A DNA stretch of 64,000 bases. Origin: Hymenobacter busanensis. GTDB taxonomy: Bacteria; Bacteroidota; Bacteroidia; Cytophagales; Hymenobacteraceae. Shown one piece after another: positions 24,577-51,933 of this stretch (positions are counted from its first letter, which is position 1; the number at the start of each line of letters is the position of its first letter). A program made the translations under genes and the position numbers. The notes below the pieces were generated by a model. That model worked only from the letters and a program-made list of their open reading frames with translations. It did not search any database and was not told the DNA's origin. The stretch is from contig NZ_VTWU01000007.1 of assembly GCF_008727865.1 (NCBI RefSeq), forward strand, positions 62,001-126,000, written 5' to 3'.

Positions 24577-24911
24577 CGCGGGAGCGTCGCAACGATACGC
24601 CGCATCGGTGGAATCCAACTCCGCTGCTTTGCAATGCAAGTCGGGAGCGTTGCAAACAGCTCGGGTATGTCGCAAGCCTGCTCGGGAGCGTCGCAAACCG
24701 GCTCGGGACCGTTTCAAAACACCTCGATGGCGTCGCAAACCGGCTCTGACACGTTTTAAAGCAGCTCGGGAACGTTTCAAGCCGGCTCAGAAGCGTTTCA
24801 AAACCCCTCCGGTACGTTTCAAGGCAGCTCGGAAGCGTTGCAAGCCGACTCCGGACCGTTGCAACGCTACCCGAAACCGTCAGAAAGCCGGTCTAGACGC
24901 TTCTAGGCCAG
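24577..24911. repeat. Degenerate 21-bp tandem array A (about 16 units)
   Basis: Units begin near CTCGG and carry a core CGTTTCAA or CGTTGCAA. Starts at 24660, 24681, 24702, 24723, 24744, 24765, 24786, 24807, 24828, 24849 and 24870 are exactly 21 bp apart. One unit (24640-24659) is 20 bp. Units diverge strongly from each other, yet the period holds. The last, worn unit overlaps the stop codon of menE. Two reading frames stay open across it because 21 is a multiple of three. Confidence 0.85.
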
Positions 24912-26045
24912 TTTCCCCTCATTGGCAGCCAGCCCCAGGGCCTGCAAGGTGGCGCGGCGGTTGAGCTTGCCGCTGGCCGTTTGCGCAAACTGCGGCGCGT
25001 AGTGCACCGCCCGCGGCACCTCGTAGCGGCCCAGGCGTTGGCGCAACAGCTCCAGCAGCTGGGTTTCTTCGGCCGGCGGCAGCGCGTCGCCTTCCACAAT
25101 GGCCGTTACCTGCTGGCCCAGTCGCTCGTCGGGCAGGCCGGCCACGAAGGCGCGGCGCCCCGAGAGGCCCACTTCCACCAAGGCCACTTCCAGCACCAGC
25201 TCCACCTTTTCGGCCGGCACTTTCACCCCGCCCGAGTTGATGACGAAATCGGCGCGGCCCAGCCACGCAAACTGGCTGTGGTCGTGTTCGAGGAAGCGCA
25301 CGAGGTCGTTGGTTTGCACCAGCTCCTGCAAGGTCACGTCGCCCCGAATGGCGAGGCAACCGCGCGCGTCCTGCTCTACGTGCAGGCCGGGCAGCACCCG
25401 GTAAAACTCGGAGGCCTCGGGGCCGTTGAGGCGGCGCAGGGCCACGTGGGAGCAGGTCTCCGTCATGCCGTAGGTGTGGTAGAGCGGCACCTGCAGGGCC
25501 TGCACCTGCTGGCTCAAGCCGTGGTCGAGCGGCGCCCCACCGATGAGAATGGCGCGCATGCGTTCCAGGCGCGGGGCATGGCCCTGCGCCAGCACCGCCC
25601 GCAGCTGTAGTGGCACCAAGGAACCGAAGTCGAAGTCGGCCTCGAGCGGCAGCAGCGCAAACGGGTCGGCCACGGGCTCCACAATGGTGAGGTGCATGCC
25701 GTGCTCCAGGGCCCGCACCAGCATCATCAGCCCGCCAATGAATTCGCAGTTCAGGCACACCAGCATGCGGTGCCCGGGCCCCAGGCCGAAGTAATCGACG
25801 GTGCGGCGGGCGCTGGCCAGCAGCTGGCTGCGCTTGAGCGTGATGGGCTGGGCCGGGCCGGTCGAGCCGGAGGTAGTCAGCACAAACTCCTGCACGCCGT
25901 TCAGCCACTGGCGGCAGAAATCGAGCACGCGCGCCTCGTAGCCGTTGATGTCGCCGCCGGCGTGGCCGGGGTATTGCTGAATGTCACGGTAGGCGTAGCG
26001 GCGGCCGTTGAGCAGGAGCGAATCGGGCAGGGGAGTAGCGGGCAT
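24903..26045 (-). CDS. menE: o-Succinylbenzoate-CoA ligase (MenE-type acyl-adenylating enzyme)
   Basis: 380 residues, short like other Bacteroidota MenE proteins. The AMP-binding signature is FVLTTSGSTGPAQPITL, followed by LYHTYGMTETCSHVAL, the hinge region FAWLGRADFVINSGGVKV and the catalytic-lysine end QTASGKLNRRATLQ. MenE activates o-succinylbenzoate with ATP and CoA in menaquinone synthesis. The assignment over other AMP-ligases rests on length and on menB, menD, menF and menI lying 2-6 kb upstream on the same strand. The ATG at 26045 gives MPATPLPDSLLLNG; upstream extension is unsupported. Confidence 0.82.
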   Translation of the reverse strand: MPATPLPDSLLLNGRRYAYRDIQQYPGHAGGDINGYEARVLDFCRQWLNGVQEFVLTTSGSTGPAQPITLKRSQLLASARRTVDYFGLGPGHRMLVCLNCEFIGGLMMLVRALEHGMHLTIVEPVADPFALLPLEADFDFGSLVPLQLRAVLAQGHAPRLERMRAILIGGAPLDHGLSQQVQALQVPLYHTYGMTETCSHVALRRLNGPEASEFYRVLPGLHVEQDARGCLAIRGDVTLQELVQTNDLVRFLEHDHSQFAWLGRADFVINSGGVKVPAEKVELVLEVALVEVGLSGRRAFVAGLPDERLGQQVTAIVEGDALPPAEETQLLELLRQRLGRYEVPRAVHYAPQFAQTASGKLNRRATLQALGLAANEGKLA

Positions 26046-26463
26046 AAGTGAAAAGGCGTAGCGGTGTGCGGCAAACAGGCATCCATACGCAACACCCGCC
26101 TGCAAGTGCTGCGCGAGGCGAAAAGTACCACTCCCTACCGATACCAGATGGGCTAGACCAACGGACCGAAACCCCTGCAAAGGCCGGCCAAAGTTTGGCA
26201 AGCCTGATACCATTTCGGTGCTTTCATGATAAGATGGTATAATGGTAAAAGTCAATAAAATATTGATCCTAATCATAGTCGTGGTTTTAGTGAAACCCCA
26301 GTAGATAGAGGAAACAGGATACTGCTGTGATTGTGTTTTGCTTTGGAATGAATTATGGGGTAATCATCCGGTTTTCATGTTAAATATTAGCTAAGGCGTT
26401 GCGTTGGGCTTTTTTTCGTCCTAGCTTCAAAACGTTTTCCTACTTACTCTTACCAAGTTTCTT
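26046..26463. other. Intergenic region with AT-rich half
   Basis: 418 bp between divergent genes. From about 26200 the composition turns AT-rich (for example TAATGGTAAAAGTCAATAAA). The inverted words ATACCAT (26209-26215) and ATGGTAT (26232-26238) may form a weak hairpin. No reading frame is convincing. Promoters for menE and the secreted protein gene should lie here. Confidence 0.4.
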
Positions 26464-27048
26464 ATGCGTCTGTACTGCCTACTGTTCTCGATTTTGGTAG
26501 CACTGCCTGCTGCCGCCCAACATTCGCCAAGTGCAAAAAAGCCGACACCGGTCAAGGCCGTAGTTGCCGCCCCGCCAGCACCCGTTATCATCCCGCCCTC
26601 TACCCAGAAACTCGACTTGCACTACGGTTTTCGGGGCGTGGCCCTCGAAGCCGATAGCCTAACCGTGGAAGGTCTCGCCTTTGACCGCCGCGACAACGGC
26701 CTTTCCCTCTGCCACCGCGACACCGACAGCCTCATGCTGGGCACGGCGGCCATCAGTCCCACTACCTATTCGTTTTACCGCGGCAAGCTCCTGAGCCTTT
26801 CTTTTTCCGCCAAGGGAGCTGCCAACAGCCACGCCGTATTGGCCCGCCTGCAAGCCCTATACGGCCCCGGCGAGCAGAAAAACAGCGGCCAGCAGCGCTA
26901 CACCTGGCGCGGTACCAAAGCCCTGCTCCGCTACGACGAAAGCTCGACCAACAACAACGCGGTTATCACGCTCATTTCGCTTCCCCTGAGCAGCATCCGC
27001 CAGCAAGACAGCAACGGCGCCACTCTGGGGACGGCTGCCAACCGGTAG
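26464..27048 (+). CDS. Secreted hypothetical protein
   Basis: 194 residues. A signal peptide (1-19, ending AAAQ) and a Pro/Lys/Ala linker (to about 48) lead to a small domain beginning LDLHYGFRGVALEADSLTVEGLAF with later KLLSLSFSAKGAANSHAVLARLQALYGPGEQ. That pattern (short strands, then a helix with ALYGPG, then a strand TYTWRGTKALLRYDE) resembles small periplasmic domains that measure or modify ligands, but no family is certain. It ends at a very strong terminator. Confidence 0.65.
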   Translation: MRLYCLLFSILVALPAAAQHSPSAKKPTPVKAVVAAPPAPVIIPPSTQKLDLHYGFRGVALEADSLTVEGLAFDRRDNGLSLCHRDTDSLMLGTAAISPTTYSFYRGKLLSLSFSAKGAANSHAVLARLQALYGPGEQKNSGQQRYTWRGTKALLRYDESSTNNNAVITLISLPLSSIRQQDSNGATLGTAANR

Positions 27049-27067
27049 CAGCCCCCAACCGCCTGAA

Positions 27068-27128
27068 CCCAACCCCGCCGCAACAAAAAAGCCCCAATCT
27101 GGGGCTTTTTTGTTGCGGCGGGGTTGGG
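27068..27128. terminator. Very long bidirectional terminator
   Basis: A perfect 29-bp stem (27068-27096 with 27100-27128) around a 3-nt ATC loop. The stem includes AAAAAA/TTTTTT tracts next to a GCCCCA/TGGGGC core, so it gives a T run after the core on either strand. It separates the convergent secreted-protein and cupin genes. Confidence 0.85.
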
Positions 27129-27179
27129 CTGACCTACATGTAGCGCAGCGCACCAAATGGTCAGGCCAACGAAGCGCGG

Positions 27180-27734
27180 CTACGCTACCACGGCGGGCGG
27201 AGCATCCTGAAAGCAGGTGTACTTGCCCAGCGCCCGGCCCACCAACACCGTGGCCGGCAGTACGGCTTTCTTCACAAACGGCGGAATGTCGTGCATCTCA
27301 AACTCGCTGGCGTAGCGCGTCAGCAGGTAGGCGCCCGTGAAGGCTTCGGGCTGGTGGCGGCCAGCGGCGCGCTGCGAGGCAAATACTTCCGTGATGAAAA
27401 ACGCAAAGTTGTGGGCCGGCTTGATCCAGGCCGTGCAGTGCAGCACGGTGTCGCCGTCGTTCCAGAAGCGGTGGGCCTGACCGCGCCCGAATACCACCGT
27501 TTCGCCCTCGCCGGCGTACTGCACCGGCTGCCCCTGCACCTGGTAGGCCAGCTTCCCCGACACCACCGTCAGCGACTCGTCCTGCAGCCAGTGCGTGTGC
27601 ATGGGCGGTCCGCTGCCCGGTACCACAAAATTCTCGCCCACCAGCCGGTCGCCGTCGGGCTCGTGCTCCAGCGCGTGGAAAATCAGTTTTTCACCGAGTC
27701 CGTTCTCGATGATGTGAGGGAAGGTCATTTTCAT
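27180..27734 (-). CDS. Cupin-domain protein
   Basis: 184 residues. A cupin barrel is seen at about 30-105: PMHTHWLQDESLTVVSGKLAYQVQ (motif 1, with His pair and Glu) and GEGETVVFGRGQAHRFWNDGD (motif 2, with His). These residues usually bind a divalent metal. The C-terminal region (about 115-184) is helical with YLLTRYASEFEMHDIPPFVKKAVL, and may be membrane-facing. The function is unknown. The ATG at 27734 is chosen; an alternative Met lies two codons later. The gene stands between menE and menB without joining them in an obvious pathway. Confidence 0.8.
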   Translation of the reverse strand: MKMTFPHIIENGLGEKLIFHALEHEPDGDRLVGENFVVPGSGPPMHTHWLQDESLTVVSGKLAYQVQGQPVQYAGEGETVVFGRGQAHRFWNDGDTVLHCTAWIKPAHNFAFFITEVFASQRAAGRHQPEAFTGAYLLTRYASEFEMHDIPPFVKKAVLPATVLVGRALGKYTCFQDAPPAVVA

Positions 27735-27961
27735 AGCGTTGGGAAAGGTTTGGGGTTGGCAGGTGCGCGCTTCGGTTGGCCCCGCGGCCGGTACGGGTGT
27801 CACCCAAGCGCCCAGCAAAGGTGGCACATGCTGCCCCCCGGCACAATCACATGAAGAGGTGATAAGTAGCTGAATGATTGATTTGTAGACTGCTTTAGTA
27901 TCAAGATAAAAACTCTGAAACCCTCCAGGATGAGCCAAATGAGTGGTGCAAAGCCATAATA

Positions 27962-27996
27962 AAGAAGCCCGCACAACAGCGTTGCGCGGGCTTCTT
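27962..27996 (-). terminator. Terminator of the menB transcript
   Basis: An 11-bp stem (27962-27972 with 27986-27996) lies 25 bp beyond the menB stop on the minus strand. The trailing T run is short. Confidence 0.55.
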
Positions 27997-28020
27997 CTGG
28001 TAGGCTGTTTCGGCAACTGC

Positions 28021-28845
28021 TTACGGAAACTTGGGGTACTTCGAGAAGTCGGGCTGGCGCTTCTCCATGAAGGCGTTTTTACCCTCCTTGGCTTCTTCGC
28101 TCAGGTAGTAGAGCAGCGTGGCGTTGCCGGCCAGCTCCTGAATACCAGCCTGCCCGTCGAGTTCAGCATTGAACGACGACTTGAGCATGCGCAGCGCCAG
28201 CGGGCTTTTCTGCAGAATTTTGCGGCACCACGCCAAGGTGGTTTCCTCCAGTTTTTCCAGCGGCACCACTTTGTTCACCAAGCCCATATCGAGGGCCTCC
28301 TGGGCGTCGTATTGGTCGCAGAGGTACCAGATTTCGCGGGCCTTCTTCTGGCCCACGATGCGGGCGAGGTACGAAGCGCCAAAGCCGCCGTCGAACGAGC
28401 CGACCATGGGGCCAGTCTGGCCGAAGCGGGCGTTGTCGGCCGCAATGGTCAGGTCGCAGACCACGTGCAGCACGTGGCCGCCGCCGATGGCCCAGCCGGC
28501 CACCATGGCAATAACGGGCTTGGGAATGGAGCGAATCTGCTTTTGCAGGTCGAGCACGTTCAAGCGGGGCACGGTGTCCTGGCCCACGTAGCCGCCGTGG
28601 CCGCGTACGCTCTGGTCGCCGCCCGAGCAGAAGGCCTTGCCGCCTTCGCCGGTGAGGATGACCACGCCGATGTCGGTGCGGTTGCGGCAGATGTCCATGG
28701 CCTCAATCATTTCCTGCACCGTAAGCGGGGTGAAGGCGTTGTGCACCTGCGGGCGGTTGATGGAGATTTTGGCAATGCCCTCGTGCTCGGAAAACAGGAT
28801 TTCCTTGAATTCCTTGATGGGCGTCCAGGTTACTTGCTGGGACAT
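28021..28845 (-). CDS. menB: 1,4-Dihydroxy-2-naphthoyl-CoA synthase
   Basis: 274 residues of the crotonase fold. Diagnostic MenB stretches include [41 protein letters not shown], the oxyanion segment [24 protein letters not shown] and [22 protein letters not shown]. The enzyme closes the naphthoquinone ring from o-succinylbenzoyl-CoA in menaquinone synthesis. It lies 65 bp after menD, separated by a palindromic hairpin. Cytoplasmic. Confidence 0.96.
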
Positions 28846-28861
28846 AAAGTGGGAAGAAACT

Positions 28862-28898
28862 AGGCCGTCCTGCTGAGCTTGCCGAAGCAGGACGGCCT
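28862..28898. repeat. Palindromic hairpin between menD and menB
   Basis: A perfect 13-bp stem (28862-28874 with 28886-28898) with an 11-nt loop GAGCTTGCCGA. The core CTGCTGAGCTTGCCGAAGCA looks like a member of a dispersed repeat family; a diverged relative lies near 63925-63955. Its position within the operon could moderate menB expression, as an attenuator or an mRNA stabiliser. Confidence 0.7.
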
Positions 28899-28910
28899 GG
28901 CGATGAAAGA

Positions 28911-30743
28911 TTAGGAAAAAGACGTGCGCACGGCGGTGCGGTAGTGTTCAAAGAAAGCGGCGTTGGCGGCCGAGTCGGTGGTAATTTCCAGCAGTGCCGC
29001 GCTGCCTTTAGACGAGGGCGCAAAGAAAGCGGGCAGCGCCTTATCCAGCTCCTCAAACGTACGCACGGCGCGGTAGCGCAGGTTAAAATCCCGGGCCGTG
29101 TTTTCAGCCGTCAGCGGCTGGTGCGTTTCAAAAAACTCCTCCAGCTCGGGCTGCTGGCGCGGCCCGTCGATGAGCCGGAAAATGCCGCCCGCGTGGTTAT
29201 TGATGAGGATGATGCGCAGGTTGGGCACCGGGTAGTTGTGCCAGAGGGCGTTGCGGTCGTAGAAAAACGCCACGTCGCCGGTGAGCAGCACCACGGGCCG
29301 CCCGGGCTGGGCTAGGGCCGCGCCCACGGCGGTAGAGGTACAGCCGTCGATGCCACTGGTGCCGCGGTTGGCAAATACCTCGATGGCCCGGCCGGCCGGC
29401 ACCCCCAGAATGTTGGCGTAGCGCACGGCCATGCTGTTGGCCAAGTGCAGCGCGGCGCCGTCGGGCACGAGCTGCAGGGCGCGGTAAATGGCCGAAAACT
29501 CGTTGAACGGCTGCTCGGGCTGCTGCATGAACTCGGCCACAAACTCGGTGGCCCAGCCGTTGGCGCGCTGCCAGGGCGTGGCAAAAGCGTCCTTGGGTGC
29601 CGCGGCCTCGTCGCGGGCCGAGCCGGTGCCTTGCCAGACGAGGCGGGTTTGCTGATTCTTGGCGGCTTGTTTCTGGCCTTTGGCTGCCGCGGGAGTCTCG
29701 CTCAGCAGCGCTTCGAAAAACGCCGCCGGTTCCATCCGAATCACGCGGGTCAGCGACTTAAACGTATCGGCCACGGCCCCGGCCGGCTGCACGTGCCAGT
29801 GCTGCGTGGGCGCATACTCGCGCAGGTAGTTTTTCAGTGCCTTCGAGATGAGCGACTGACCGAAGGTGATGAGCAACTCGGGCCGCAGGGCCTCTTTCAA
29901 GCCGGCTTCGGGCACGGCCATAAACACGTCCTGGCGGCCCAGCGGGGCGTGCCGGAGGTCGTAGTCGGGTCCTACGGGCAGGTGCACGTTGGCAATCAAG
30001 TCGCCGACAACCGGAATCTGGTAGGCGGCGGCCAGCTTCCGCAATGCCAGCAGCAGGGGCGCATCGGCGGGGTGCTGGCCGGCCACCACCAAAGCGCGGG
30101 CCGTCTGGCGAAGCTGCTGGCGCAATTCGTCCAGCTCGTTGGCCGTCAGCTGCGGGCTGCCGCCGGTTTCCTGCGTGATGTTGACTTTGTCGTAGCGAAT
30201 TTCCTCGCCTACAGCCGGGTAAAACGGTTCGCGCAACGGCACGTTCACCTGCACCGGCCCGGCCGGAAACTGCTGGGCGAGGTTGATGGCTTCCGACACC
30301 ATGCGCGCGGCGTGCCAGCGGGCGTCGGGGTGGGTGAGGTCGGCGGGAAACTCGAAGGCGCCCTTGGCGTGGCCGCCGTAGAGGTCGGTTTGCCGGATGG
30401 TCTGCCCGTCGAGCTGGTCAATCCACTCGGGCGGACGGTCGGCGGTGAAGAGTACCAGCGGCACCTGCTGAAAATAGGCTTCGGCCACAGCCGGGGCGTA
30501 GTTCAGGCCGGCCGTGCCCGAGGTGCACACCAGCGCCACGGCCCGCCGCTGGGCCTGCGCTAGGCCCAGGGCAATGAAGGCCGCGGCGCGCTCGTCGGGC
30601 ACGACGCGGGTGCGCACCTCGGGGTGGCGCGCAAAGGCAATGGTGAGCGGGGCGCAGCGCGAGCCGGGCGACAACACCACGTCGGTGATGCCGTGCCGGG
30701 CGCAGATTTCGGCGATGTTGTGAACGGGCTGCAGGGGAGACAA
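28911..30743 (-). CDS. menD: 2-Succinyl-5-enolpyruvyl-6-hydroxy-3-cyclohexene-1-carboxylate synthase
   Basis: 610 residues. The N-terminal ThDP-binding domain starts with [23 protein letters not shown], the typical MenD opening, followed by [35 protein letters not shown]. The ThDP/Mg motif region [14 protein letters not shown]...[11 protein letters not shown] lies near residues 500-535. MenD joins 2-oxoglutarate (after decarboxylation) to isochorismate. It is probably co-transcribed with menF upstream, 105 bp away, but a TACCTTTG box in that gap offers its own promoter. Confidence 0.95.
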
Positions 30744-30766
30744 AGGCAGGCAGAATTGGGGCGCGG

Positions 30767-30774
30767 CAAAGGTA
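30767..30774 (-). promoter_or_regulatory. Bacteroidota-type -7 box ahead of menD
   Basis: TACCTTTG on the minus strand matches the consensus exactly, 23 nt before the menD start codon. No TTTG at -33 was found. Confidence 0.4.
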
Positions 30775-30848
30775 ACAAGCCCGCCGCCTTGTGGGTTTGG
30801 CCGAGCTGATTGGCCAGCTTGCTTCGCTTGTAATGACCGGCTCGCTCC

Positions 30849-32039
30849 CTAATCCAACACCGAGCCCACGGTACGCAGCTTCAGCTCGGTTTCTTCCCAC
30901 TCGCGCGCCGGGTCCGATTCGGCGGTGAGGCCGGTGCCGGCGTACAGAACGGCTTCGGTGGGGCGCAACTGCATGCAGCGCAGGTTCACGAACAGGCGCG
31001 AGGCGCCGGCCGGCAGGTTTATTGGGCCCAGGAAGCCGCTGTAGTACGTGCGGTCGTAGCCTTCGTGGCGCTGCAGAAAATCCAGTGCGGCTTGGCGCGG
31101 CATGCCGCCCACGGCCGAAGTGGGGTGCAACAGCCGCAGCATATCGGTGCCAAAGGTGGGCGAGGCCACGCGGCGCAGGTCGATGCGGAAATCGGTGCGC
31201 AGATGCAGCAGGTTGCCGGCGGCCACGGTGCGCGGACCGGTCTCGTCGTAGTCGCGCAGGCGGAAGTGCTTGAAGCAGTTGACAATATAGCGCGACACCA
31301 GGGCCTGCTCTTCAATGTCTTTCTGCCGCCAGATGGCCGTGTGTGCCGTTACGTCGGCCGTGAGCGGCTGCGTGCCGGCCAGCGCCATTGTGCGAAACTC
31401 CGCGCCGTCGACCTCCACCAGCACCTCGGGCGTGGCGCCCAGCCAGGTACCGGCCAGCGGTGCACTCACCAGCGAGACAAACGCCCGCGGGTGCTGCCGG
31501 CACAGCTCCTCAAAGGCCTGCAAAGTATCGAACCCCGCAGGCAACGGCCGCCGCGCCGCCCGGCTCGATACTACTTTCTGCACCTGCCCGGCCTGAATGG
31601 CGGCCACGCCCGTGGCCACCAGGGCCTCGTAGGCGGCGCGGTCGGCGGTGATTGGCACGGGCTGCGGGCTCACGTGCCACGCCAGATCGGTCGGGGCATC
31701 GGGTTCGGCCAGCACGCGGTGCGCGGCGGCTACGGCTTCAGGCGAAAGAGTCGGGCTCAGGGTCAGTTGCTGGCCGTCGAATACCACGTCGGCGGGCAGC
31801 AGCATGGCCTCGGCCGTGTCGCCGTCCTGAAACGGGTAGAAGGCGAAACCAGCCGGTGCCGTGGCCTCAATGGCGGGCGGCAGGCCCGAAAGCAGCAGCG
31901 GCTGCAGGCTCAGCAGCAGCGTGGGCGCCTCGGCGTTGGGCAGGCGCCAGAGCGCCACCGAGCCGCCGTGCCGCAGGGCCAGTGCCATCAGCCGGCGCAA
32001 GGCAGCCGGTCGTTCGGGGGCCGAAAACGTGGTACTCAC
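30849..32039 (-). CDS. menF: Isochorismate synthase
   Basis: 396 residues of the chorismate-binding family. Key parts: QVQKVVSSRAARRPLP, FVSLVSAPLAGTWLGATPEVLVEV, MALAGTQPL, the helix DIEEQALVSRYIV, HPTSAVGGMPRQAALDFL, YYSGFLGP and the metal-binding end AGTGLTAESDPAREWEETELKLR. It converts chorismate to isochorismate, the entry to menaquinone synthesis. The GTG start at 32039 overlaps the menI stop as GTGA, so the two are translationally coupled; no ATG lies near the right position. The enzyme could be named entC by some, but the men context decides. Confidence 0.93.
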   Translation of the reverse strand: MSTTFSAPERPAALRRLMALALRHGGSVALWRLPNAEAPTLLLSLQPLLLSGLPPAIEATAPAGFAFYPFQDGDTAEAMLLPADVVFDGQQLTLSPTLSPEAVAAAHRVLAEPDAPTDLAWHVSPQPVPITADRAAYEALVATGVAAIQAGQVQKVVSSRAARRPLPAGFDTLQAFEELCRQHPRAFVSLVSAPLAGTWLGATPEVLVEVDGAEFRTMALAGTQPLTADVTAHTAIWRQKDIEEQALVSRYIVNCFKHFRLRDYDETGPRTVAAGNLLHLRTDFRIDLRRVASPTFGTDMLRLLHPTSAVGGMPRQAALDFLQRHEGYDRTYYSGFLGPINLPAGASRLFVNLRCMQLRPTEAVLYAGTGLTAESDPAREWEETELKLRTVGSVLD

Positions 32040-32485
32040 GCCTGCGCGGGTTTGGCGGCGGGCAGGTCGATAACGGCCATTGTGATGCGGCTCACGCACA
32101 CCAGCGCGTCGGTTTGCTCGTCGCGAATCTTGATTTCCCACACCTGCGTGCTGCGGCCGATGTGCAAAGCTTCGGCGCGGCCCACCACGAAGCCCGAGCG
32201 CACCCCTTTGAGGTGGTTGGCGTTGATTTCGAGGCCCACGCAGGCTTGTTTCGTGCGGTCGACCTGCAAGGTGGCGGCAATGCTGCCCAGGGTTTCGGCC
32301 AGGGCCACCGAGGCGCCGCCGTGCAGCAGGCCCATGGGCTGGTGCGTGCGGTGGTCGACGGGCATGCGGCCCACCAGGTGACGCTCCCCAACTTCCAGGA
32401 TTTCTATCCCCAAATGCGCGCCCATCGTGTTTTTCGACCACGCGTTGAGGTCGGCGGGGGTGGGCAGGGAAGCGGGCAGCGACAT
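32036..32485 (-). CDS. menI: Hotdog-fold thioesterase, probable 1,4-dihydroxy-2-naphthoyl-CoA hydrolase
   Basis: 149 residues of the PaaI/YdiI hotdog family. The active-site region is HQPMGLLHGGASVALAETLGS, and the family openings NTMGAHLGIEILEVGERHLVGRMPVDHRT fit well. In menaquinone synthesis MenI hydrolyses 1,4-dihydroxy-2-naphthoyl-CoA. It is the first gene of the men cluster here and overlaps menF by 4 bases. The function is inferred from the family and the operon. Confidence 0.85.
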   Translation of the reverse strand: MSLPASLPTPADLNAWSKNTMGAHLGIEILEVGERHLVGRMPVDHRTHQPMGLLHGGASVALAETLGSIAATLQVDRTKQACVGLEINANHLKGVRSGFVVGRAEALHIGRSTQVWEIKIRDEQTDALVCVSRITMAVIDLPAAKPAQA

Positions 32486-38754: not shown

Positions 38755-39447
38755 TTATTGCTTCTCCGCATCCCCTTTTCCCGGCTTCGCAAACCACTTC
38801 GGGTCATACAGCGCCTGCACGGCTTCGGGCTCGTCGATGTGCTGTTTCAACTGCTCCAGCAGGTTCAGCTTGAGCTGGCGGGCTGCCGCTTTGCGCAGCT
38901 TCTTTTCCTGTTTGCTGTCGTCCTGCACGTCGCCTTTGCTGGCGCTCTGGGTTTGGCGGGCGGCTTTGAACTCGGCCAGTAGCGTAGCGGCGCGGTCGGC
39001 TAGTTCTTGGCCGAGGGCGGCTTTGTATTTCTGGGTGAGGCTGGCGGTGCGCTCGAGCAGGGTGGGAAGGGTGAGCAACGTGGCCTGGCTGTACTCTTTG
39101 CGGCCGCGGGGTAAAAACTCTTCCAGAGCCTTGGCGTCGGGGCTTTTGCGCTTAAAATGGTACTCGGCGTCCACCAGCAACTCGTCTTTGGCAAAGCCTT
39201 TGAACGCGGCCAGCAACCGTTCTACCGCATCGGTGCTGCCCTGTCGCTCGCCCACGTTTTCACTCTGGTTGCGCAGGAATGTGGCGTAGGTATCGTAGTG
39301 GGGCTGCAGGGCCGCAATTTGGGCGGTGAGGCGGCCGTCCTGGTTTCGGCCCTGCAAGCGGCTGAGGTGGCCCTCCATCAGGTCGCGAAAATCTTCGCGG
39401 TTGAGGGTCGTGGAAAGGAACGGGTTCTTGAGAAAGGGTAAAAACAT
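38755..39447 (-). CDS. Hypothetical helical protein
   Basis: 230 residues, starting MFLPFLKNPFLSTTLNREDF. Predominantly helical and charged: ALQPHYDTYATFLRNQ, TDAVERLLAAFKGFAKDELLVDAEYHF, LLTLPTLLERTASLTQKYKAALGQELADRAATLLAEFKAARQ, then a Lys-rich KQEKKLRKAAARQLKLNLLEQLKQHID segment, probably coiled coil. No signal peptide. The function is unknown. The start is set at 39447 because the upstream frame runs into the 21-bp array at 39.5 kb. Confidence 0.65.
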   Translation of the reverse strand: MFLPFLKNPFLSTTLNREDFRDLMEGHLSRLQGRNQDGRLTAQIAALQPHYDTYATFLRNQSENVGERQGSTDAVERLLAAFKGFAKDELLVDAEYHFKRKSPDAKALEEFLPRGRKEYSQATLLTLPTLLERTASLTQKYKAALGQELADRAATLLAEFKAARQTQSASKGDVQDDSKQEKKLRKAAARQLKLNLLEQLKQHIDEPEAVQALYDPKWFAKPGKGDAEKQ

Positions 39448-39521
39448 CGGGAAAAAGGAATGGTGGAATCTTGGCAATTTAGCGGCCTTTTGCAACAGGC
39501 CAAGGGCATTGGCAACCAAAA

Positions 39522-39709
39522 CGAAAGATGCCGTTCGAAACCTTTCGAACGGCATCTTTCGCCTGTAAACCAGGTTCCAAAGCATTTCGAACGGCATCTT
39601 TCGTCCGAAACTCTTCGCCTGGCGGTTTCGAGGAGCGTGTCACAGGCGCAAGATGCTCCCCGACCGGTTTCGAACGGCATCTGTCGCCTGCAACACGCCA
39701 CCCGACTTG
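39522..39709. repeat. 21/42-bp tandem array B with central palindrome
   Basis: The word TTTCGAACGGCATCTTTCG occurs at 39543-39561 and 39585-39603, with one change at 39668-39686 and a worn copy at 39626. Spacing is 42, 41 and 42 bp, that is two 21-bp units (one unit lost a base). The copy at 39543 is mirrored exactly at 39522-39540, making a 40-bp palindrome with a 2-nt centre. Confidence 0.8.
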
Positions 39710-39729
39710 GCCCGGCCGCCCCGCGGGTA

Positions 39730-43549: not shown

Positions 43550-43555
43550 AGCGCC

Positions 43556-44155: not shown

Positions 44156-44185
44156 AGTCGGAGGCAAAGAAAGAGCAGCGGCGGC

Positions 44186-44348: not shown

Positions 44349-46514
44349 GTGCCGCCTCAGCCTACCGCATCGACCCCAGCCGAGCTTCTCGCCCCGCCCC
44401 GCCGCCGTCGTTGGCTGTGGTGGGTGGGCGGGGTGCTGCTGGTGCTGGCGGCGCTGGTAGCCGTAGCCCTCTGGCAGCTCGACCCCTGGCTGCGCCGCAC
44501 GCTGGAAAAGCAGGTGGCCGAAAAGTCGCACGGCCGCTACCAGTTGCACATCGGTAGCCTGCGCACCAACCTGCGCCGGCGCGGCATTACCCTTCGCAAT
44601 ATCCAGCTGCGCCCCGTGGCCGGCCGCGCCGCCGATTCCTTGCCCGCGCCCTGGCTGGTGCTCGACGTAGGCCGCCTGCACGTGGGCGGAATTGGCCTTG
44701 GGGCCGTGTTGCGCCACGAAGTAGTGCCCGTCGATTCGCTGGCTATACAGACCGTGCGGGCGCGGGTGCTCAACACGCCCGATGATTTGGACAAAGGCGG
44801 GCCGCTGCACCAGCAGCTGCCAAAGCGCTTGGCCGGCATCCGGCTGGCGCACCTGCTGGTCGACGACGTGCGGGTGAGTTCGGGCCCGGCGCGGCACCCC
44901 ACCACCCAGCTCCGCCAGGGCAAGCTGCGGGCCACCGACATCCTACTCAGCCGCGAAGGTGCCGCCGACGGCCGCCGCATCGGCTACGCCGCCGCCCTGG
45001 AAATGCGCGCCGCCGGTTTCGAGGCCTTGGTGCCCGGCCATGCCCTCTCGCTGGGAGCCGGCCGGTTCTCCTCCGCCAACCGCGTGCTGACGCTGGATTC
45101 GTTGCGGGTGGCGCCTCGCGCTGAGGGCCGTGTGCTGGGCGCCGCCCAGGTAGCGTTGTGGCTGCCGCAGTTGTCGCTCAACGGCTTGCATACCGAGCTG
45201 CTGGGCCGCCGGCAGCTGCGAGCCGATACCCTGCGGTTTGCGCAGCCCAAGCTCACCTTCACCCTGCCCACCAAAGCCCCACCGCCTTTGCACGAGGTGC
45301 TGGCGCCGTATCTGCGCCACGTGCAGCTCGGGCACTTGCGCGTGGTTGGTGGCTGGCTGCGGTTGCGGAACCTGGATCTGGCCCCCACGGTACAGGCCAT
45401 CGACATCGACGGCGACAACGTGCAGGTGGACACGGCCGGCTACCGCGACGCGGCGCGCGTGCTCTACGCCCAAGCCTGGAACGTGCGCACGGGCCCCGCC
45501 GAGGCATCGGTGGATGCGCCGTATTACCGCCTGCGCTACCAGAGCCTGCAGCTGGCCAGCAAGCCCGGCTCGGTACGGCTGGCCGACGTGCTGCTGAAGC
45601 CCACCATGCCGCTGCACACGTTGGCGCAGCGCAAGGGCCACCAGGTGTCGCACATTACCTTGCGCGTTCCCCAGGTGCAGGCCACGGGTTTCAATTTTGG
45701 CGTTCTTACGCGGGGGAAAGGCCTGCGCCTGCAGTCGATTGCCTTCAACAGCCCCCGGTTCGACATTCGCGGCAACGCCAAGTACCGCGTCAACCCGCGT
45801 TTGTCGGTCATCACGCCCGAGCAGGTGGGGCAGCTGCCGTTCCGCGTCGACATTCGCCGGTTGCGCGTGACCAACTGCAACATGTACTTCCGCTTCATGG
45901 GCAAGCAGGCGACGAGCGTTGGTACGGTTCAGATCAACCGCATGAACGGCACGGCCACCAACCTCAGCAACGACCCGCAGCGCATGACGGCCGCCCACCC
46001 GGCCGTGCTGCACGCCACGGGCTACCTGCAAAACCGGTGCTACGTGCAGGCTACCGGCTGGCTGCCGCTGCGGGGCAACGGGCAGCACCGCATTGTGGGC
46101 ACGTTTGGACCGGCACCGTTCCGCATCCTGAACAGCATCACCGAGCCGACCCGGTTTGTGCGGTTCAAGAGCGGGCAGGTACAGGGCATCCGGTTCGAAG
46201 CCGCCTTCGACAAACAAGGCGCCACGGGCACCATGCGGGCGCGCTACTCCGACCTCAAGCTGGAATTTCTGAGCCGCAAAGGAGGCGGGGAAAACCGAAA
46301 AACGCTGCTCACGCGGGCCAAAACGTCATTGGTCAACGGCATTGTGATTCGCGACGAAAACCCGCGCAAAGGGGAATTGCAACCCGGCAAAATGGACAGC
46401 CGCCGCAATCCGCACTACTCGGTGTTTGCGCTCTGGCAGCAGGGGCTCATCAGCGGCACACTCAACAGCATTGGGCTGCCGGGCAAGATGGCCAAGTCCA
46501 TCAGCGAGGAGTAA
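44349..46514 (+). CDS. AsmA-like membrane-anchored periplasmic protein
   Basis: 721 residues from a GTG at 44349, giving a short cytoplasmic Arg-rich lead (APPRRRRWLWWVGG), one transmembrane helix (about 21-42) and a long periplasmic part. The order of strands (RYQLHIGSLRTNLRRRGITLRNIQLRP, VLDVGRLHVGGIGLGAVL, VRVSSGPARHPTT, LRLRNLDLAPTVQAIDIDGDNVQVD) and the late GHQVSHITLRVPQVQATGFNFG fits AsmA/DUF748-type repeats seen in proteins that bridge the envelope and shuttle lipids. The start is uncertain; an ATG at 44268 would add 27 residues. Confidence 0.7.
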   Translation: MPPQPTASTPAELLAPPRRRRWLWWVGGVLLVLAALVAVALWQLDPWLRRTLEKQVAEKSHGRYQLHIGSLRTNLRRRGITLRNIQLRPVAGRAADSLPAPWLVLDVGRLHVGGIGLGAVLRHEVVPVDSLAIQTVRARVLNTPDDLDKGGPLHQQLPKRLAGIRLAHLLVDDVRVSSGPARHPTTQLRQGKLRATDILLSREGAADGRRIGYAAALEMRAAGFEALVPGHALSLGAGRFSSANRVLTLDSLRVAPRAEGRVLGAAQVALWLPQLSLNGLHTELLGRRQLRADTLRFAQPKLTFTLPTKAPPPLHEVLAPYLRHVQLGHLRVVGGWLRLRNLDLAPTVQAIDIDGDNVQVDTAGYRDAARVLYAQAWNVRTGPAEASVDAPYYRLRYQSLQLASKPGSVRLADVLLKPTMPLHTLAQRKGHQVSHITLRVPQVQATGFNFGVLTRGKGLRLQSIAFNSPRFDIRGNAKYRVNPRLSVITPEQVGQLPFRVDIRRLRVTNCNMYFRFMGKQATSVGTVQINRMNGTATNLSNDPQRMTAAHPAVLHATGYLQNRCYVQATGWLPLRGNGQHRIVGTFGPAPFRILNSITEPTRFVRFKSGQVQGIRFEAAFDKQGATGTMRARYSDLKLEFLSRKGGGENRKTLLTRAKTSLVNGIVIRDENPRKGELQPGKMDSRRNPHYSVFALWQQGLISGTLNSIGLPGKMAKSISEE

Positions 46515-46684
46515 AGGGCCAGCTGGGTAGGGCCCACCGCAGTGGGCGGATGAACTTTCCAGCTTAACTATTCGTAGTTTTAGGAGCAGCTACCGAATCT
46601 GAAGCACCCGAGCCGACACTCCTCTGAAGGTTTCCAGGTTTCCTTTCCCTACCTGTTTCGCCAACCTTCTTGCCGCCGCTCGTC

Positions 46685-47440
46685 ATGCTTATTCTCGTTG
46701 CCTTCGTGGCACATTGGTACCTGTCGCTCTTCACCCAAACGTTTTTCCAGCACCGCTACGCCGCGCACCGCATGTTTACCATGCACCCGCTGTGGGAGCG
46801 GTTTTTCTTTGTCTTCACGTTTCTGATGCAGGGCTCGTCGTTCATGTCGCCGCGGGGCTACGCGCTGCTGCACCGCATGCACCACGCCTACTCCGACACC
46901 GAACAGGACCCCCACTCGCCGCACTACACCGCCAACGCCTTCACCATGATGTGGAAAACGCGCAACGTGTACCAGGATGTGTGGCTGGGCCGCAGCAACG
47001 TGGCTGCCCGCTTCGAGGGCAACTACCCCGAATGGGTGGCGCTGGAAAACCTGGCCCACCTGTGGTACGTGCGCGTGCTGTGGGGCGCGGTGTACGTGGC
47101 CTTTTACGTAGCCTTTGCCACCGAGTGGTGGATGTACCTGCTGCTGCCCATTCACTTCATGATGGGCGCGGTGCACGGCGCCATCGTCAACTGGGGCGGG
47201 CACAAATACGGCTACCAGAACTTCGACAACCACGACAAGTCGCGCAACTCCCTGTTCTTCGACTTTCTGACCGGCGGCGAGCTGTTTCAAAACAACCACC
47301 ACAAGCTTTCCAGCCGCGCCAACTTCGGCGTGAAGTGGTGGGAGTTTGACCCGACGTACCCCGTCATCTGGACGCTTGATAAGCTGCACGTTATTCGGCT
47401 GCGTGCGCCCAAACCGACCAATGTGCTGAGGGCCGCTTAG
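46685..47440 (+). CDS. Acyl-CoA desaturase-like membrane enzyme
   Basis: 251 residues. Three histidine boxes of the membrane desaturase family are intact: HRYAAH (23-28), HRMHH (63-67, in a longer HRMHHAYSDTEQDPH) and the NNHHK box. Four hydrophobic helices. The di-iron site places a double bond in fatty acyl chains, probably delta-9, to keep the membrane fluid. A TTG five codons earlier is possible; ATG 46685 is preferred. Confidence 0.88.
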   Translation: MLILVAFVAHWYLSLFTQTFFQHRYAAHRMFTMHPLWERFFFVFTFLMQGSSFMSPRGYALLHRMHHAYSDTEQDPHSPHYTANAFTMMWKTRNVYQDVWLGRSNVAARFEGNYPEWVALENLAHLWYVRVLWGAVYVAFYVAFATEWWMYLLLPIHFMMGAVHGAIVNWGGHKYGYQNFDNHDKSRNSLFFDFLTGGELFQNNHHKLSSRANFGVKWWEFDPTYPVIWTLDKLHVIRLRAPKPTNVLRAA

Positions 47441-47541
47441 CCGCGCCAGCGGCTGCCGCCAAAATGAAACCACCTGCCAAGGCCGCGCATTGCGTGGCCT
47501 TGACTATTTTAGGCCACCAACGCAGCTCAGAAACCCCACCC

Positions 47542-48411
47542 ATGACGCGACGCGCCAAAATTGCACAGCTGGTTGGGTGGCTTGGGACGTTGGCGGCGGT
47601 GGTGGCGGCTTGCTGGGTGCCGCGCCCGGCCTGGGCGATGCTGTGGCGGGAACTGAGCACCTCCACCACGTTCTACGAGTTTGTGCTGGTGGGCTTTGTG
47701 GCCCAGCTCATCGATGGGCTGCTGGGCATGGGCTACGGCGTGGTCACGGCCATCAGCCTGATGTCGCTGGGGATGAACCCGGCGGCCGTCAGCGCCAGCA
47801 TTCATACCGCCGAAATGTTTGCCAGCGGCGCCTCGGGCTTTCACCATTACCGGCTTGGCAACGTCAACCGCCGCCTGTTCAAAGCCCTCATCATTCCGGG
47901 CGTGCTGGGGGCCGTGGCCGGGGCGTTGGTGCTGGCGCATTTCAGCGGCAACCCGCCCGGCTCGTGGGTGCGGCCGGTGCTGGCGGTGTACCTGCTGCTG
48001 TTGGGCTTGCGCATCCTGACCAAGGCGTTTCAGGCGCCCGCCGTGCGCCGCAAAGTGCGCCACGTGGGCTGGCTGGCCGCGGCGGGCGGCTTCCTCGATT
48101 CGTTTGGCGGGGGCGGGTGGGGGCCGCTGGTTACCAGCACGCTCATTGCGGGCGGCCGCACACCGCAATACGTCATCGGCACCGTCAGCCTCACCGAGTT
48201 CTTCCTCACCTTCGCCAGCGCCCTCACGTTTGCGTCGGTGCTGGGCATCACCCACTGGCCGGTGGTGCTGGGGCTGATTGTAGGCGGCGTGCTGGCGGCG
48301 CCTTTGGCCGCCCAGCTGGCCGGCCGCGTGCCGGTGCGCTGGATGTTTGTGGGCGTGGGCGCAATGGTAATTATCTGGAGCCTCTGGCGGCTGCGCTCCG
48401 TGTTCTTCTAA
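47542..48411 (+). CDS. TauE/SafE-family transporter
   Basis: 289 residues with about eight transmembrane helices. The repeated family motif appears as FVAQLIDGLLGMGYGVVTA (about 43-61) and GFLDSFGGGGWGPLVTSTLI (second half), the paired helical units of the TauE/SafE fold. Such proteins export or import sulfur compounds or organic acids. Substrate unknown. The ATG at 47542 is chosen because the upstream 26 residues are polar. Confidence 0.85.
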   Translation: MTRRAKIAQLVGWLGTLAAVVAACWVPRPAWAMLWRELSTSTTFYEFVLVGFVAQLIDGLLGMGYGVVTAISLMSLGMNPAAVSASIHTAEMFASGASGFHHYRLGNVNRRLFKALIIPGVLGAVAGALVLAHFSGNPPGSWVRPVLAVYLLLLGLRILTKAFQAPAVRRKVRHVGWLAAAGGFLDSFGGGGWGPLVTSTLIAGGRTPQYVIGTVSLTEFFLTFASALTFASVLGITHWPVVLGLIVGGVLAAPLAAQLAGRVPVRWMFVGVGAMVIIWSLWRLRSVFF

Positions 48412-48427
48412 GGCGCCGAAAAGCCGC

Positions 48428-49447
48428 TTAAAACTTCACCCGTTTGATGCTGTACTCGGCCTGCGGCGGGGTTTTGTTGGCTTGCAGCTCGTTCAGGTGC
48501 GAGTACAGCACGTAGGTGTCGGCGTTGGAGCGGCGGGCGAGGGTGGTGGGGTACACGGCGGGCGTATCGAAGGTGCCGGTGGTGTTGGCCGTGGCCCAGT
48601 TGTCGGCGGTGCCGAGGCGGTAGACTTTGTTCTGGCTGTTGCACACCACCAGCAGCGTTTTTTCGTCCTGCAGCAGCAGGCCATCGGCGCCGCGCAGGGT
48701 TTGGCCGGTGGCCACGGCCTTGAAACCGGCGGGGTTGTTCAGCGGCACCTTGTAAATAGCGCCCACGTCAGACTTCGCCACCAGCAGGTAGCCATCGGGG
48801 TGAAACACGATGCCGTTGAGACCAAACTGCCCGGCATCGGCCGACAGCAGGCTGTTTTCGAGGAACACGCTGGGCGTGCCCTGCAGATCGGCCTTATAGA
48901 TGATGGGCGAGAAGCTGTCGGTAACGTACACGTTGCCCCCGTCGTCGATGGTGAGGTCGTTGGCAAAGTGGCCGGCACCCGGGCGCAGGGCGCCGAGGTC
49001 GATGGAAGACAGAAGCTGGCCGTTGTCGCGGTTGAGCACCACCAGGCGGGCCAGCTTGCGCAATGTGGCGGCCGAGGTGCGGGCGGGGTTGTAGCCGGGG
49101 TCCGACACAGCCACCAGCAGGCGGTTGCGGGCCGCGTCGAGGTGCAGGCCGATGCTGGACACCAGGGCCGGGTCGCTGGAAAAAGCGGTGTAGATGCCGT
49201 TGTCGGATACCGTGCCCACGGTGCCGCTGGTTTCGGAGCCGACGAGGTAGCGGAAATGCTGGGCGTCGTACTGCACACCCTCGGGGTACAGGTTGGGCTG
49301 CCTGAACCGGACTTCCACGGGCGGCGAGTCGTCGTCTTTTGCACACCCCGGCAGCAGCAGGCCCAAGCCCGTCAGCAGCGCCAGCAACGAAAGTAGAGGG
49401 CGCCCGGCTGCCGGAGCAGGGGCGAGAAGCCGGAGTACAGAGCGCAT
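48428..49447 (-). CDS. SMP-30/gluconolactonase-like lipoprotein
   Basis: 339 residues. A lipoprotein signal (LLALLTGLGLLLPGCAKDDD) is followed by a beta-propeller: blades include LDAARNRLLVAVSDPG, LVVLNRDNGQLLSSIDLG, FANDLTIDDGGNVYVTDSFSPIIYKAD and GIVFHPDGYLLVAKSDVGAIYKVPL. NDLTIDDGGNVYVTDS is close to the Ca-binding Asn/Asp pair of SMP-30 proteins. It probably hydrolyses lactones or only binds ligands; the activity is unknown. Convergent with the TauE/SafE gene, 16 bp away. Confidence 0.8.
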   Translation of the reverse strand: MRSVLRLLAPAPAAGRPLLSLLALLTGLGLLLPGCAKDDDSPPVEVRFRQPNLYPEGVQYDAQHFRYLVGSETSGTVGTVSDNGIYTAFSSDPALVSSIGLHLDAARNRLLVAVSDPGYNPARTSAATLRKLARLVVLNRDNGQLLSSIDLGALRPGAGHFANDLTIDDGGNVYVTDSFSPIIYKADLQGTPSVFLENSLLSADAGQFGLNGIVFHPDGYLLVAKSDVGAIYKVPLNNPAGFKAVATGQTLRGADGLLLQDEKTLLVVCNSQNKVYRLGTADNWATANTTGTFDTPAVYPTTLARRSNADTYVLYSHLNELQANKTPPQAEYSIKRVKF

Positions 49448-49529
49448 GCTTTCCGATGGTGAAGTTCAGCGGTGTACGTACGCAGCCGGCCGCGCAAAGG
49501 ATAAGGACCAGCCGCGGTACCCGGCCCGG

Positions 49530-50240
49530 CTACACCAACTTCAGCGTGCCTCCCACGAAGCTGTTCACGTAGTCGACAATTTCACCCGTCACGCGGTAGA
49601 GGTCGGCGGTTTCGGCTGCGGAGCGCCCACCGGATCGGCGGGCCAGCTTCTCGGCGTCGGCTAGGCGGTCGAGGGAATAGCGAAGCGAATCGAAGGCCAG
49701 TTGCAGCTGCGCATTGCTCTGGCTGCCGTCCTGGAGCGCGGCCAGCCGCAGCTCCAGCGTGTGCATCACCACTTCGGCCATGCGGCCCAGCAGGGCCTGC
49801 TCGGCCACCGAAAACGTGCGTGGCTCCCGGTCGATGACGCAGACGGTGCCGATGCTGTGGCCGTCGGCGGTTTTGAGCGGCACGCCGGCGTAAAACTGCA
49901 GGTTTAGGGCTTCGGCTACGTCGGGGTTGGTGAGGGTGCAGGGGCTTTGGGTGAGGTTTTCGAATACCACCGGGGTGCCGTGCAGCACGGCTACCGAACA
50001 CAGGCTGTCTTCGCGCGGTACCCGGATGGCGCCGGGCAGGCCGAAATTGGCCTTGAACCACACGGTGTCCTGCGTCACCAACGACACCAGGGCAATGGGC
50101 ATGTCGAAGAGCCGGGCAATGAGCCGGGCCAAGTCGTCGAATAGCTGTTCGGGCGGGGTGTCCGCTATGCGGTAGCGGGCCAGGGCGTGGGTGCGGTCCT
50201 TATCATGCGGCGGGATAAGGAGGCGTTTATCAACAGGCAT
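49530..50240 (-). CDS. GAF-domain protein
   Basis: 236 residues from ATG 50240; a GTG five codons upstream is possible. The GAF domain (about 20-165) carries FDDLARLIARLFDMPIALVSLVTQDTVWFKANFG, SLCSVAVLHGTPVVFENLT, FYAGVPLKTADGHSIGTVCVID and FSVAEQALLGRMAEVV. The C-terminal region is a coiled helix (LRLAALQDGSQSNAQLQLAFDSLRYSLDRLADAEKLA) with no kinase or diguanylate cyclase domain. The ligand is unknown. A signalling partner is not adjacent. Confidence 0.85.
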   Translation of the reverse strand: MPVDKRLLIPPHDKDRTHALARYRIADTPPEQLFDDLARLIARLFDMPIALVSLVTQDTVWFKANFGLPGAIRVPREDSLCSVAVLHGTPVVFENLTQSPCTLTNPDVAEALNLQFYAGVPLKTADGHSIGTVCVIDREPRTFSVAEQALLGRMAEVVMHTLELRLAALQDGSQSNAQLQLAFDSLRYSLDRLADAEKLARRSGGRSAAETADLYRVTGEIVDYVNSFVGGTLKLV

Positions 50241-50477
50241 TTGTTCTCGCGGCACGGTTCAGGTTCCAGCCCGCGTACGGCGTTGCGGAAAGGGAGGTTG
50301 CATTGCGGGAAAGCAAAGGCCGTATGCCGCTGGTTTCAAAGTGGAAAAAAGGGGCGGGCCGAGCGGGAGCGGGGCGTGCTTGTCGGGACGGGCTGCTATT
50401 TTGCCGCGGCGCCGCAGCCGTTTGGTCGGCTGCGCGGTTGAAGACATTTACGCGCACCTGCCCACACGGAAACCACC

Positions 50478-51500
50478 ATGCAAATCGGAATCGACAGTTT
50501 TGCCTCGCACCTGCTCACGAACAGCAGCGGCACCACCCTGAGCGGCCAGCAGGCCATGGCCGAGCTGCTCGCGCGCATCGAGCGGGCCGATGAAGTGGGG
50601 CTCGACGTGTTTGGCATTGGGGAGCATCACCGGCCGGAATACCTCGACTCGGCCACGGCCGTGATTCTGGCCGCCGCGGCCGCCCGCACCAAGCGCATTC
50701 GGCTCACCAGCGCCGTAACGGTGCTGTCGGCCGCCGACCCGGTGCGCGTGTTTCAGGAGTTTGCCACGCTCGATTTGATTTCGCAGGGCCGCGCCGAAAT
50801 GGTGGTGGGCCGGGGCTCGTCCATCGAAGCCTTCCCGCTGTTTGGCTTCGACCTGGACGACTACGACGCCCTGTTTGCCGAGAAGCTGGAGCTGCTGCTG
50901 AAAATCCGCGACGCGGAGCGCGTGACGTGGTCGGGCAAGTTTCGGCCGGCCCTCACGGGGCAGGGCATTTACCCGCGGCCGGTGCAGCAGCCGCTGCCCA
51001 TTTGGCTGGGGGTGGGCGGCACGCCGCAGTCGTTTGCGCGGGCCGGCATGCTGGGCCTGCCGCTCATGGTGGCCATCATCGGCGGCGACACCCACCGCTT
51101 CCGGCCGCTGGTGGATGTGTACCGCGAAGCCGGGCGCCGGGCCGGGCACGCACCCGAGCAGCTGCAAGTAGGACTGCACTCGTTGGGCTACGTGGCCGAC
51201 ACCACCGCGCAAGCCGTTGAGGCCATGTACCCCGGCTACGCCCGCACGTTTTCGGCGCGCAGCAAGGAGCGGGGCGGTCCGCCCGTTACCCGGGCGGCAT
51301 TCGATGCGCAAACCGGGCCGTTGGGCGCGCTGCTCGTCGGCAGCCCCGAGGACGTGGCCGCCAAGATTCTGCGCCACGCCGAGGCGCTGGGCGGCATCAC
51401 GCGGGTCACGTTTCAGATGGACGTGGCCACATTGCCGCACACCGAGCTGCTGCGGGCCATTGAGCTGCTGGGCACGCGCGTGGCGCCGCTGCTGCGCTGA
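50478..51500 (+). CDS. LLM-class flavin-dependent oxidoreductase
   Basis: 340 residues of the luciferase-like monooxygenase fold. Family landmarks are LLARIERADEVGLDVFGIGEHHRPEYLDS, IRLTSAVTVLSAADPVRVFQEFATLDLIS, GRAEMVVGRGSSIEAF and PLPIWLGVGGTPQS. It uses reduced flavin, and bacterial members often serve alkane, sulfur or xenobiotic oxidation; the substrate is unknown. The gene ends 13 bp before a 20-unit 21-bp tandem array. Confidence 0.9.
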   Translation: MQIGIDSFASHLLTNSSGTTLSGQQAMAELLARIERADEVGLDVFGIGEHHRPEYLDSATAVILAAAAARTKRIRLTSAVTVLSAADPVRVFQEFATLDLISQGRAEMVVGRGSSIEAFPLFGFDLDDYDALFAEKLELLLKIRDAERVTWSGKFRPALTGQGIYPRPVQQPLPIWLGVGGTPQSFARAGMLGLPLMVAIIGGDTHRFRPLVDVYREAGRRAGHAPEQLQVGLHSLGYVADTTAQAVEAMYPGYARTFSARSKERGGPPVTRAAFDAQTGPLGALLVGSPEDVAAKILRHAEALGGITRVTFQMDVATLPHTELLRAIELLGTRVAPLLR

Positions 51501-51513
51501 AGCGCGGGCGGGC

Positions 51514-51933
51514 TGTGCCGGGCTTGTAATGGCATGTGCCGAGCTTGTAATGGTCGGTGTCAACCTTGCAATGGCATGTGGCGGGCCTGTAACGGTCAGT
51601 GGCGAGCTTGCAATGGGCGGTGACGGGTGCGCAACGCCCTGTGTCAAGCGCGTTATGCCCCGTGTCGGGCGTGATATGAAGCGAGTCGGGGTGGCAATGG
51701 CCGCTGACGAGGCGTCAATGACCGGTGCCAAGGTGACAACGGCTGGTGACGGGGTGACAATGGCCGGTGACGAGGCGTCAAAGCCCGGTGGCGGGGTGAC
51801 ATTGCGCTGTGTCAAGGCGTCAATGGCCGGTGTCGAGCTGTCAATGGCATGTGTCAAGGCGTCAATGGCCGGTGTCAGGGCGTCAATGGGCTGTGCCGAG
51901 GTGACAACGGCCGGTGACGGGGTGGCATTACCG
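51514..51933. repeat. 21-bp tandem array C (20 units, no indels)
   Basis: Consecutive units each span exactly 21 bp from 51514 onward. Most have GGTG or TGTG at the start and a core such as GGCGTCAATGG, for instance units at 51808-51828 and 51850-51870. Units differ at many positions yet none is longer or shorter. The surrounding 51501-52033 holds no other feature. Several frames stay open because 21 is a multiple of three. Confidence 0.85.

Follow-up and report, generated by a model that had tools for sequence, protein, structure and literature searches.

Three intergenic repeat arrays, here called A1, A2 and A3, lie in a 64,000-nucleotide window of the Hymenobacter busanensis genome (contig NZ_VTWU01000007.1, positions 62,001 to 126,000 of the forward strand). 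The original prediction had tentatively grouped them as one class of element in which a 21-bp period, and not a sequence, is maintained. Such a class does exist: direct arrays with this step recur next to a single gene family (family A) across the phylum, and their unit sequences, which are unrelated between distant loci, co-diverge in a strand-specific manner with the adjacent protein. A1 and A3 belong to it as orphan arrays, each resembling the array of one family A gene in the same genome. A2 is a member of a sister class composed of 41–42-bp palindromes, with a protein family of its own (family B). The conservation of the step, and not of the letters, in arrays beside two undescribed families suggests an undescribed protein-and-DNA-array system. 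It seems rather likely that A1 and A3 are the dispersed DNA halves of a cognate protein-plus-array module, in which the protein would bind duplex DNA every two turns, regulate its own gene and use orphan sites in trans.

Within the window, identity at lags of 21, 42, 63 and 84 bp was 0.60, 0.59, 0.56 and 0.49 for A1 (0.26 expected) and 0.65, 0.66, 0.63 and 0.63 for A3 (0.28 expected). The register is kept across the 20 units of A3 and is shifted once, by 1 bp near 24660, in A1. As predicted, the units of these two arrays are unrelated (position weight matrix (PWM) correlation r 0.31, p 0.37). The common period assigned to all three loci holds for A1 and A3 and fails for A2, where lag 42 gave z 5.1 and lag 21 only z 2.0, and which contains perfect 19–20-bp inverted repeats. 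All three arrays are indeed intergenic by codon-usage gene calls (A1 in 24421–24902, A2 in 39448–39729 and A3 in 51501–52033), and an Rfam scan of the window returned no family at gathering score. Lags of 21, 42, 63 and 84 bp dominate in 522 intergenic regions from a 1.26-Mb sample and are absent from dinucleotide shuffles, so the condition set for refuting the prediction, a period 21 no more frequent than periods 18, 20, 22 and 24 in intergenic DNA, does not hold.

The search for a gene that co-occurs with the arrays yielded families A and B, for direct and palindromic arrays respectively. The flanking genes of arrays in H. busanensis (genome G000; C5, C6, C7, C9 and C11 are its contig labels) included several similar proteins, which define family A. 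These proteins are about 225 amino acids long and mostly basic, and a direct array of about 4–21 units of 21 bp is usual, most often 80–160 bp upstream of the start codon (78–158 bp at 18 of 22 loci). An array was scored where the top lag was a multiple of 21 with z of at least 6 or, for family B, where steps were 41–43 bp. When 58 genomes were searched with the C6 protein, 24 family A loci were found in 9 genomes, and 22 of them had such an array upstream; the other two loci hold a truncated copy (L221) and a weak relative (L230). In a profile search of the order, 29 of 291 genomes had family A; 30 loci were kept, 6 of which repeated earlier ones, and arrays were present at 15 of the 24 new loci. 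In a search of 395 genomes of the phylum it was present in 15, and a multiple of 21 was the top signal at 10 of 17 new loci; L323 and L340 show signals at multiples of 21 near z 7 beneath a different top lag. These order and phylum counts cover kept loci, mostly the best match per genome, and the searches returned more matches. Altogether, arrays were scored at 47 of 65 family A loci examined and lie upstream at 45 of the 47; the same step occurs in AT-rich and GC-rich arrays from other classes of the phylum. Among 144 control windows around menE orthologues, a set that excludes L091 and loci shorter than 9 kb, one passed the family A rule and none the family B rule. At two loci from different genomes of one taxonomic family, f20 (L271 and L273), the 21-bp array is downstream of the family A gene. 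Another family A gene (L338) is preceded, at a distance of about 1 kb, by a tandem repeat of 16 bp (z 15.8), and a 21-bp array is not its top signal.

Array similarity rises with the similarity of the adjacent proteins. Same-strand PWM r was 0.22 for family A pairs below 30% identity, 0.24 at 30–40%, 0.37 at 40–55%, 0.46 at 55–70% and 0.57 above 70%, whereas reverse-strand similarity was flat (0.16–0.29). A Mantel test of array against protein divergence gave r 0.70 (p 2e-4). Even beside an orthologous gene, the consensus of the whole array differs by species, being CACAATGG in G000 and TTGTAATGG in G001 and G003.

In H. busanensis, the arrays linked to family A genes (helper arrays) have matching orphans. 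Five of eight orphan arrays resemble one helper array with r 0.80–0.92, the next best being at most 0.48; one of these, C7:463, was found through its similarity to A1, and without it the count is four of seven. A1 (r 0.87) and A3 (r 0.80) each match the array of one family A gene. Unit family I comprises A1, the gene-linked C11:41732–42023 and C7:463099–463347; unit family II comprises A3, the gene-linked C5:690835–691149 and C5:70253–70567; and unit family IV joins C6:12762 with C5:47543 (r 0.93). In each of these three traced families, a single array is linked to a gene and the other one or two are orphan copies. At C5:47, the orphan reproduces the C6 helper array in full and colinearly over 263 bp (one diagonal scores 55.5 against 28.5), and homology stops near the array ends; the other orphan–helper pairs have no single dominant diagonal or only a weak one. 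Searching 57 relatives with the family I model (R1) brought up no array, which indicates that the class is not findable from letters alone. The family A gene beside the family II helper array (L218, C5:690070–690744) is interrupted by one stop codon; its relatives L231–L233 are open, and the family II orphan arrays persist.

Table 1. Arrays and associated gene in the window.
Feature	Position	Strand	Description
A1	24577..24895	+	Orphan direct 21-bp array; core 24619–24870, 12 units, consensus approximately TCGGGAnCGTTTCAAnnCnGC; unit family I
A2	39521..39693	.	Array of palindromes (core GATGCCGTTCGAAA / TTTCGAACGGCATC), the copies spaced by 42 and 83 bp; located upstream of family B gene
Family B gene	38755..39447	-	230-amino-acid protein; no convincing Pfam or NCBIfam match; directly downstream of A2
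A3	51515..51934	+	Orphan array of 20 direct 21-bp units, consensus approximately GTGnCGAGnnGnCAATGGCCG; unit family II

The sister class shows a comparable association. Family B, defined by the window gene at 38755–39447, was represented by 15 loci in 7 of the 58 genomes, and in the order it occurred in 15 of 291 genomes, all 15 of which also carry family A. Palindromic arrays with a step of about 42 bp adjoin 14 of the 15 loci and 18 of 23 new ones (the order search gave 30 loci, 7 repeating earlier ones), a total of 32 of 38, and they are upstream at 16 loci and downstream at 16. One locus missed by the rule (L247) gives a 42-bp signal when a longer upstream stretch is taken (z 9.3, L292). 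In H. psychrotolerans (L091), a 42/125-bp palindromic array was flagged before the adjoining family B gene was recognised. Self-complementarity averaged r 0.63 in family B arrays (27 of 28 counted, A2 being too short) and 0.30 in 39 family A arrays, as compared directly and without a shuffled null. The profiles of the two families resemble each other weakly (hhalign probability 39%, E 3e-4).

Both families lack a convincing Pfam or NCBIfam match. The best stray matches were PADLOC PDC-M38B (E 1e-4, 1 of 22 family A members) and two Pfam models under their cut-offs, DUF5063 (E 5e-4) and, at the family A locus L324, L-A virus coat (E 0.0013). For family B they were Pfam GlfT2 domain 3 (E 0.0024, 1 of 16) and NCBIfam RPE1 (E 0.0061, 2 of 16). 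Other family scans, among them Pfam, NCBIfam and PHROG on family A, yielded only matches with E above 0.005; PADLOC and PHROG were scanned with family A only. The best Protein Data Bank sequence matches (E 0.01 for A and 0.053 for B) were not credible. Median isoelectric point is 9.3 in both families (range 5.3–9.8 for A and 6.1–9.8 for B), and composition and pattern suggest to us that the proteins are helical. Invariant or near-invariant columns hold L, A and T in family A and F, L, P, G and A in family B. Since there is no invariant polar residue, and T139 of family A alone is near-invariant, an enzyme is unlikely.

A period of 21 bp corresponds to two turns of the double helix. In 9 of 11 arrays, units were about equally similar whatever their distance, and in 10 of 11 some columns were invariant and others free beyond a uniform-mutation model (L066, p 0.08, being the other). 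In the power spectrum of column conservation for 39 of the 49 arrays, the 10 shorter ones having been dropped, period 10.5 stands out (z 7.3), period 21 is raised less (z 3.9) and period 3 shows no excess. For 20 arrays whose proteins are less than 40% identical, the corresponding values were z 4.9, 3.6 and, at the codon period of 3, -2.2, and a red-noise null gave p 0.003 for the 10.5-bp power. As suggestive though not conclusive evidence, this 10.5-bp component points to duplex DNA being read from one face. Of the roles first proposed, phased sites for a DNA-binding protein is the one we favour, as a conjecture. Bent DNA through phased A/T words does not fit, with no signal at lags of 10–11 in A1 or A3 and an average of 61% GC in 49 arrays; nor does slippage in 21-base steps, given that in most arrays unit identity barely drops with distance, and that 10 of 11 have over-dispersed columns.

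We envisage that the protein would bind its own array as duplex DNA, contacting one face every two helical turns, family A on direct repeats and family B as a dimer on palindromes. The bound protein may form a regular filament or cluster. The array beside its own gene would serve autoregulation, and orphan arrays would act as sites in trans, most likely organising or marking chromosome segments. A protein lattice of this kind would demand near-fixed spacing, and letter recognition would be free to drift along with the protein. Extended to the whole phylum, the scheme becomes a more tentative one, in which a system reads DNA by spacing: paralogues would sit on their own arrays (two turns for A, four for B), control their own genes there and tether or mark orphan sites, with the lattice kept as sequence drifts.

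Several observations weigh against the proposed module. Shared ancestry alone predicts some co-divergence. The power at 10.5 bp (P2) is above the average of the adjacent P1 and P3 in just 9 of the 20 arrays, in which period 21 is raised as well. No array was scored at 18 of 65 family A loci and 6 of 38 family B loci; the former include a divergent subgroup (L230, L280, L281 and L283, genus g5), which may have another role. At L324 and L332 the lags are 82 and 102 bp, a step of about 20.5 bp that may be a variant of the helical spacing, and steps of 20 or 22 bp occur inside some arrays. Three of the eight orphans (C9:140, C9:168 and C9:274) have no clear helper match, and genome G016 carries a family II array with no partner shown among its family A genes found. 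When mononucleotide shuffles serve as the control, RNA folding is slightly better for some direct arrays (z down to -2.6).

The main rival is that the arrays are selfish and REPIN-like, copied by the linked protein or by a recruited host enzyme and with no host role, which we regard as unlikely. In REPIN–RAYT systems the helper is a Y1 (HUH) transposase and the REP units are palindromic. Here too, gene-linked repeats have dispersed copies in one genome, repeats and protein co-diverge, and the colinear C5:47 copy ending near the array ends is what such copying would give. Orphan sites also vary between species. In the six nearest named genomes, the 21-bp array is absent from the A1 site in five, and the sixth sequence (L084) stops 124 bp beyond the gene. 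In six genus genomes, no 21-bp array was found in the 1500 bp following the A3 neighbour gene, and downstream synteny is lost too. However, no Y1/HUH transposase was matched for the helper (A against Pfam, NCBIfam, PHROG and PADLOC; B against Pfam and NCBIfam), H and Y are absent from the conserved columns, and dispersed copies are few in each family. The family A arrays are direct repeats and less self-complementary than those of family B. Three queries (two A, one B) had no match in 72,556 plasmid records, nor had the B query, the only one used, in 50,697 phage records; in viral contigs five stretches fitted a pattern for the B protein and none was a relative. Selfish copying also leaves the 21-bp spacing kept across the phylum unexplained. 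REPIN–RAYT systems are treated in PMC3116915, PMC2817692 and PMC8266576.

Slightly less probable again is an RNA-level system, in which the array would be transcribed into a repeat RNA bound by the adjacent protein, as a type III toxin–antitoxin or other ribonucleoprotein. In ToxIN, TenpIN and CptIN, the array is transcribed as an antitoxin RNA against the ToxN, TenpN or CptN endoribonuclease. The usual upstream position of family A arrays, directly before the protein gene and on a conserved strand, agrees with this, as does the mostly basic nature of the proteins; family B arrays could fold as hairpins, and both A2 (z about -7 relative to column-permuted controls) and a palindromic array in G016 (L081) are strongly structured as RNA. 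However, ten direct arrays showed no structure in excess of column-permuted controls (z -1.7 to 1.0), the conserved columns have the 10.5-bp component, and family B arrays are equally frequent on either side of the gene. Words resembling the Bacteroidetes promoter motif occur in the array-to-gene gap at 7 of 22 loci (3.2 in shuffles, p 0.016), which would place the array outside the gene's mRNA at those loci. No ToxN, TenpN or CptN match was obtained for family A in Pfam, PADLOC or NCBIfam.

Neutral minisatellites arising by slippage or unequal exchange are improbable: homogeneity within arrays and the species-specific consensus at the orthologous gene resemble concerted evolution, and identity declines with distance in L066 and L044, but the near-flat similarity in the other arrays, the over-dispersed columns and a single period tied to one gene family across the phylum are at odds with it. 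A coding role, in which 21 bp would be seven codons and the arrays would specify heptad-repeat peptides, is hardly credible, for although the C11 array is open in frame with its gene (LGSVSKR-like heptads), stop codons turn up in different frames and, in L238, in all three forward ones, codon-position entropy is inconsistent over 19 arrays, codon-period power is below chance and A1, A2 and A3 are called intergenic. Coding heptads, RNA structure in family A-type arrays, phased A-tract bending and slippage were each rejected on these tests.

The proposed module also resembles iterons and ParR–parC centromeres, which have an adjacent Rep or motor protein and a ribbon–helix–helix (RHH) or Rep fold. 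The likeness lies in direct repeats that follow one another in tandem at a helical spacing and precede the gene for a presumed binding protein. In contrast to those systems, several paralogous modules occur per genome, orphan arrays lie elsewhere, the plasmid collection gave no match and the helper matched no RHH or Rep family; ParM, ParA, TubZ or Rep were not noticed beside 13 G000 arrays, inspected by eye and without a family scan of neighbours. CRISPR arrays share regular repeats, but there the repeats are separated by unique spacers, whereas here degenerate 21-bp units are contiguous, and no Cas gene was noticed among immediate neighbours. The module is thus laid out like REPIN–RAYT and built like an iteron or centromere array, and it fails a defining feature of each. 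In the open-licence literature, judged by titles or abstract openings and with bioRxiv outside its coverage, no description of such arrays was found. Two protein families are tied to a DNA feature conserved in length and not in sequence, a kind of element that evades homology searches of the usual sort. Should the proteins bind these arrays, they would provide many natural protein–array pairs for studying co-evolving DNA recognition, and possibly a chromosome-organising system in Bacteroidota.

The genus can do without the system, since single-protein searches of G004, G005 and G007 gave no A or B match, nor did profiles in G004 and G005. Samples of 100 kb from the latter two held one candidate lag-21 cluster (L071, z 6.3) and 7-bp repeats, and nothing like A1 or A3. 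The L081 array of G016 (13505–13735) is very regular (GGAAGGTACCCGGGTAGGTTC), its 21-bp unit being itself nearly palindromic; the 20-kb stretch around it had no A or B match in the searches of that genome. In H. busanensis, C9:284543–323115 contains several stretches of 2.6–5.7 kb without a called gene, reflecting either a gene-poor region or failure of the codon-based caller on foreign codon usage. Tandem repeats of 8 bp (L088:5006–5243, TGATTGAA) and 7 bp (L073:1842–2079) also occur in Hymenobacteraceae and are unrelated to the 21-bp class.

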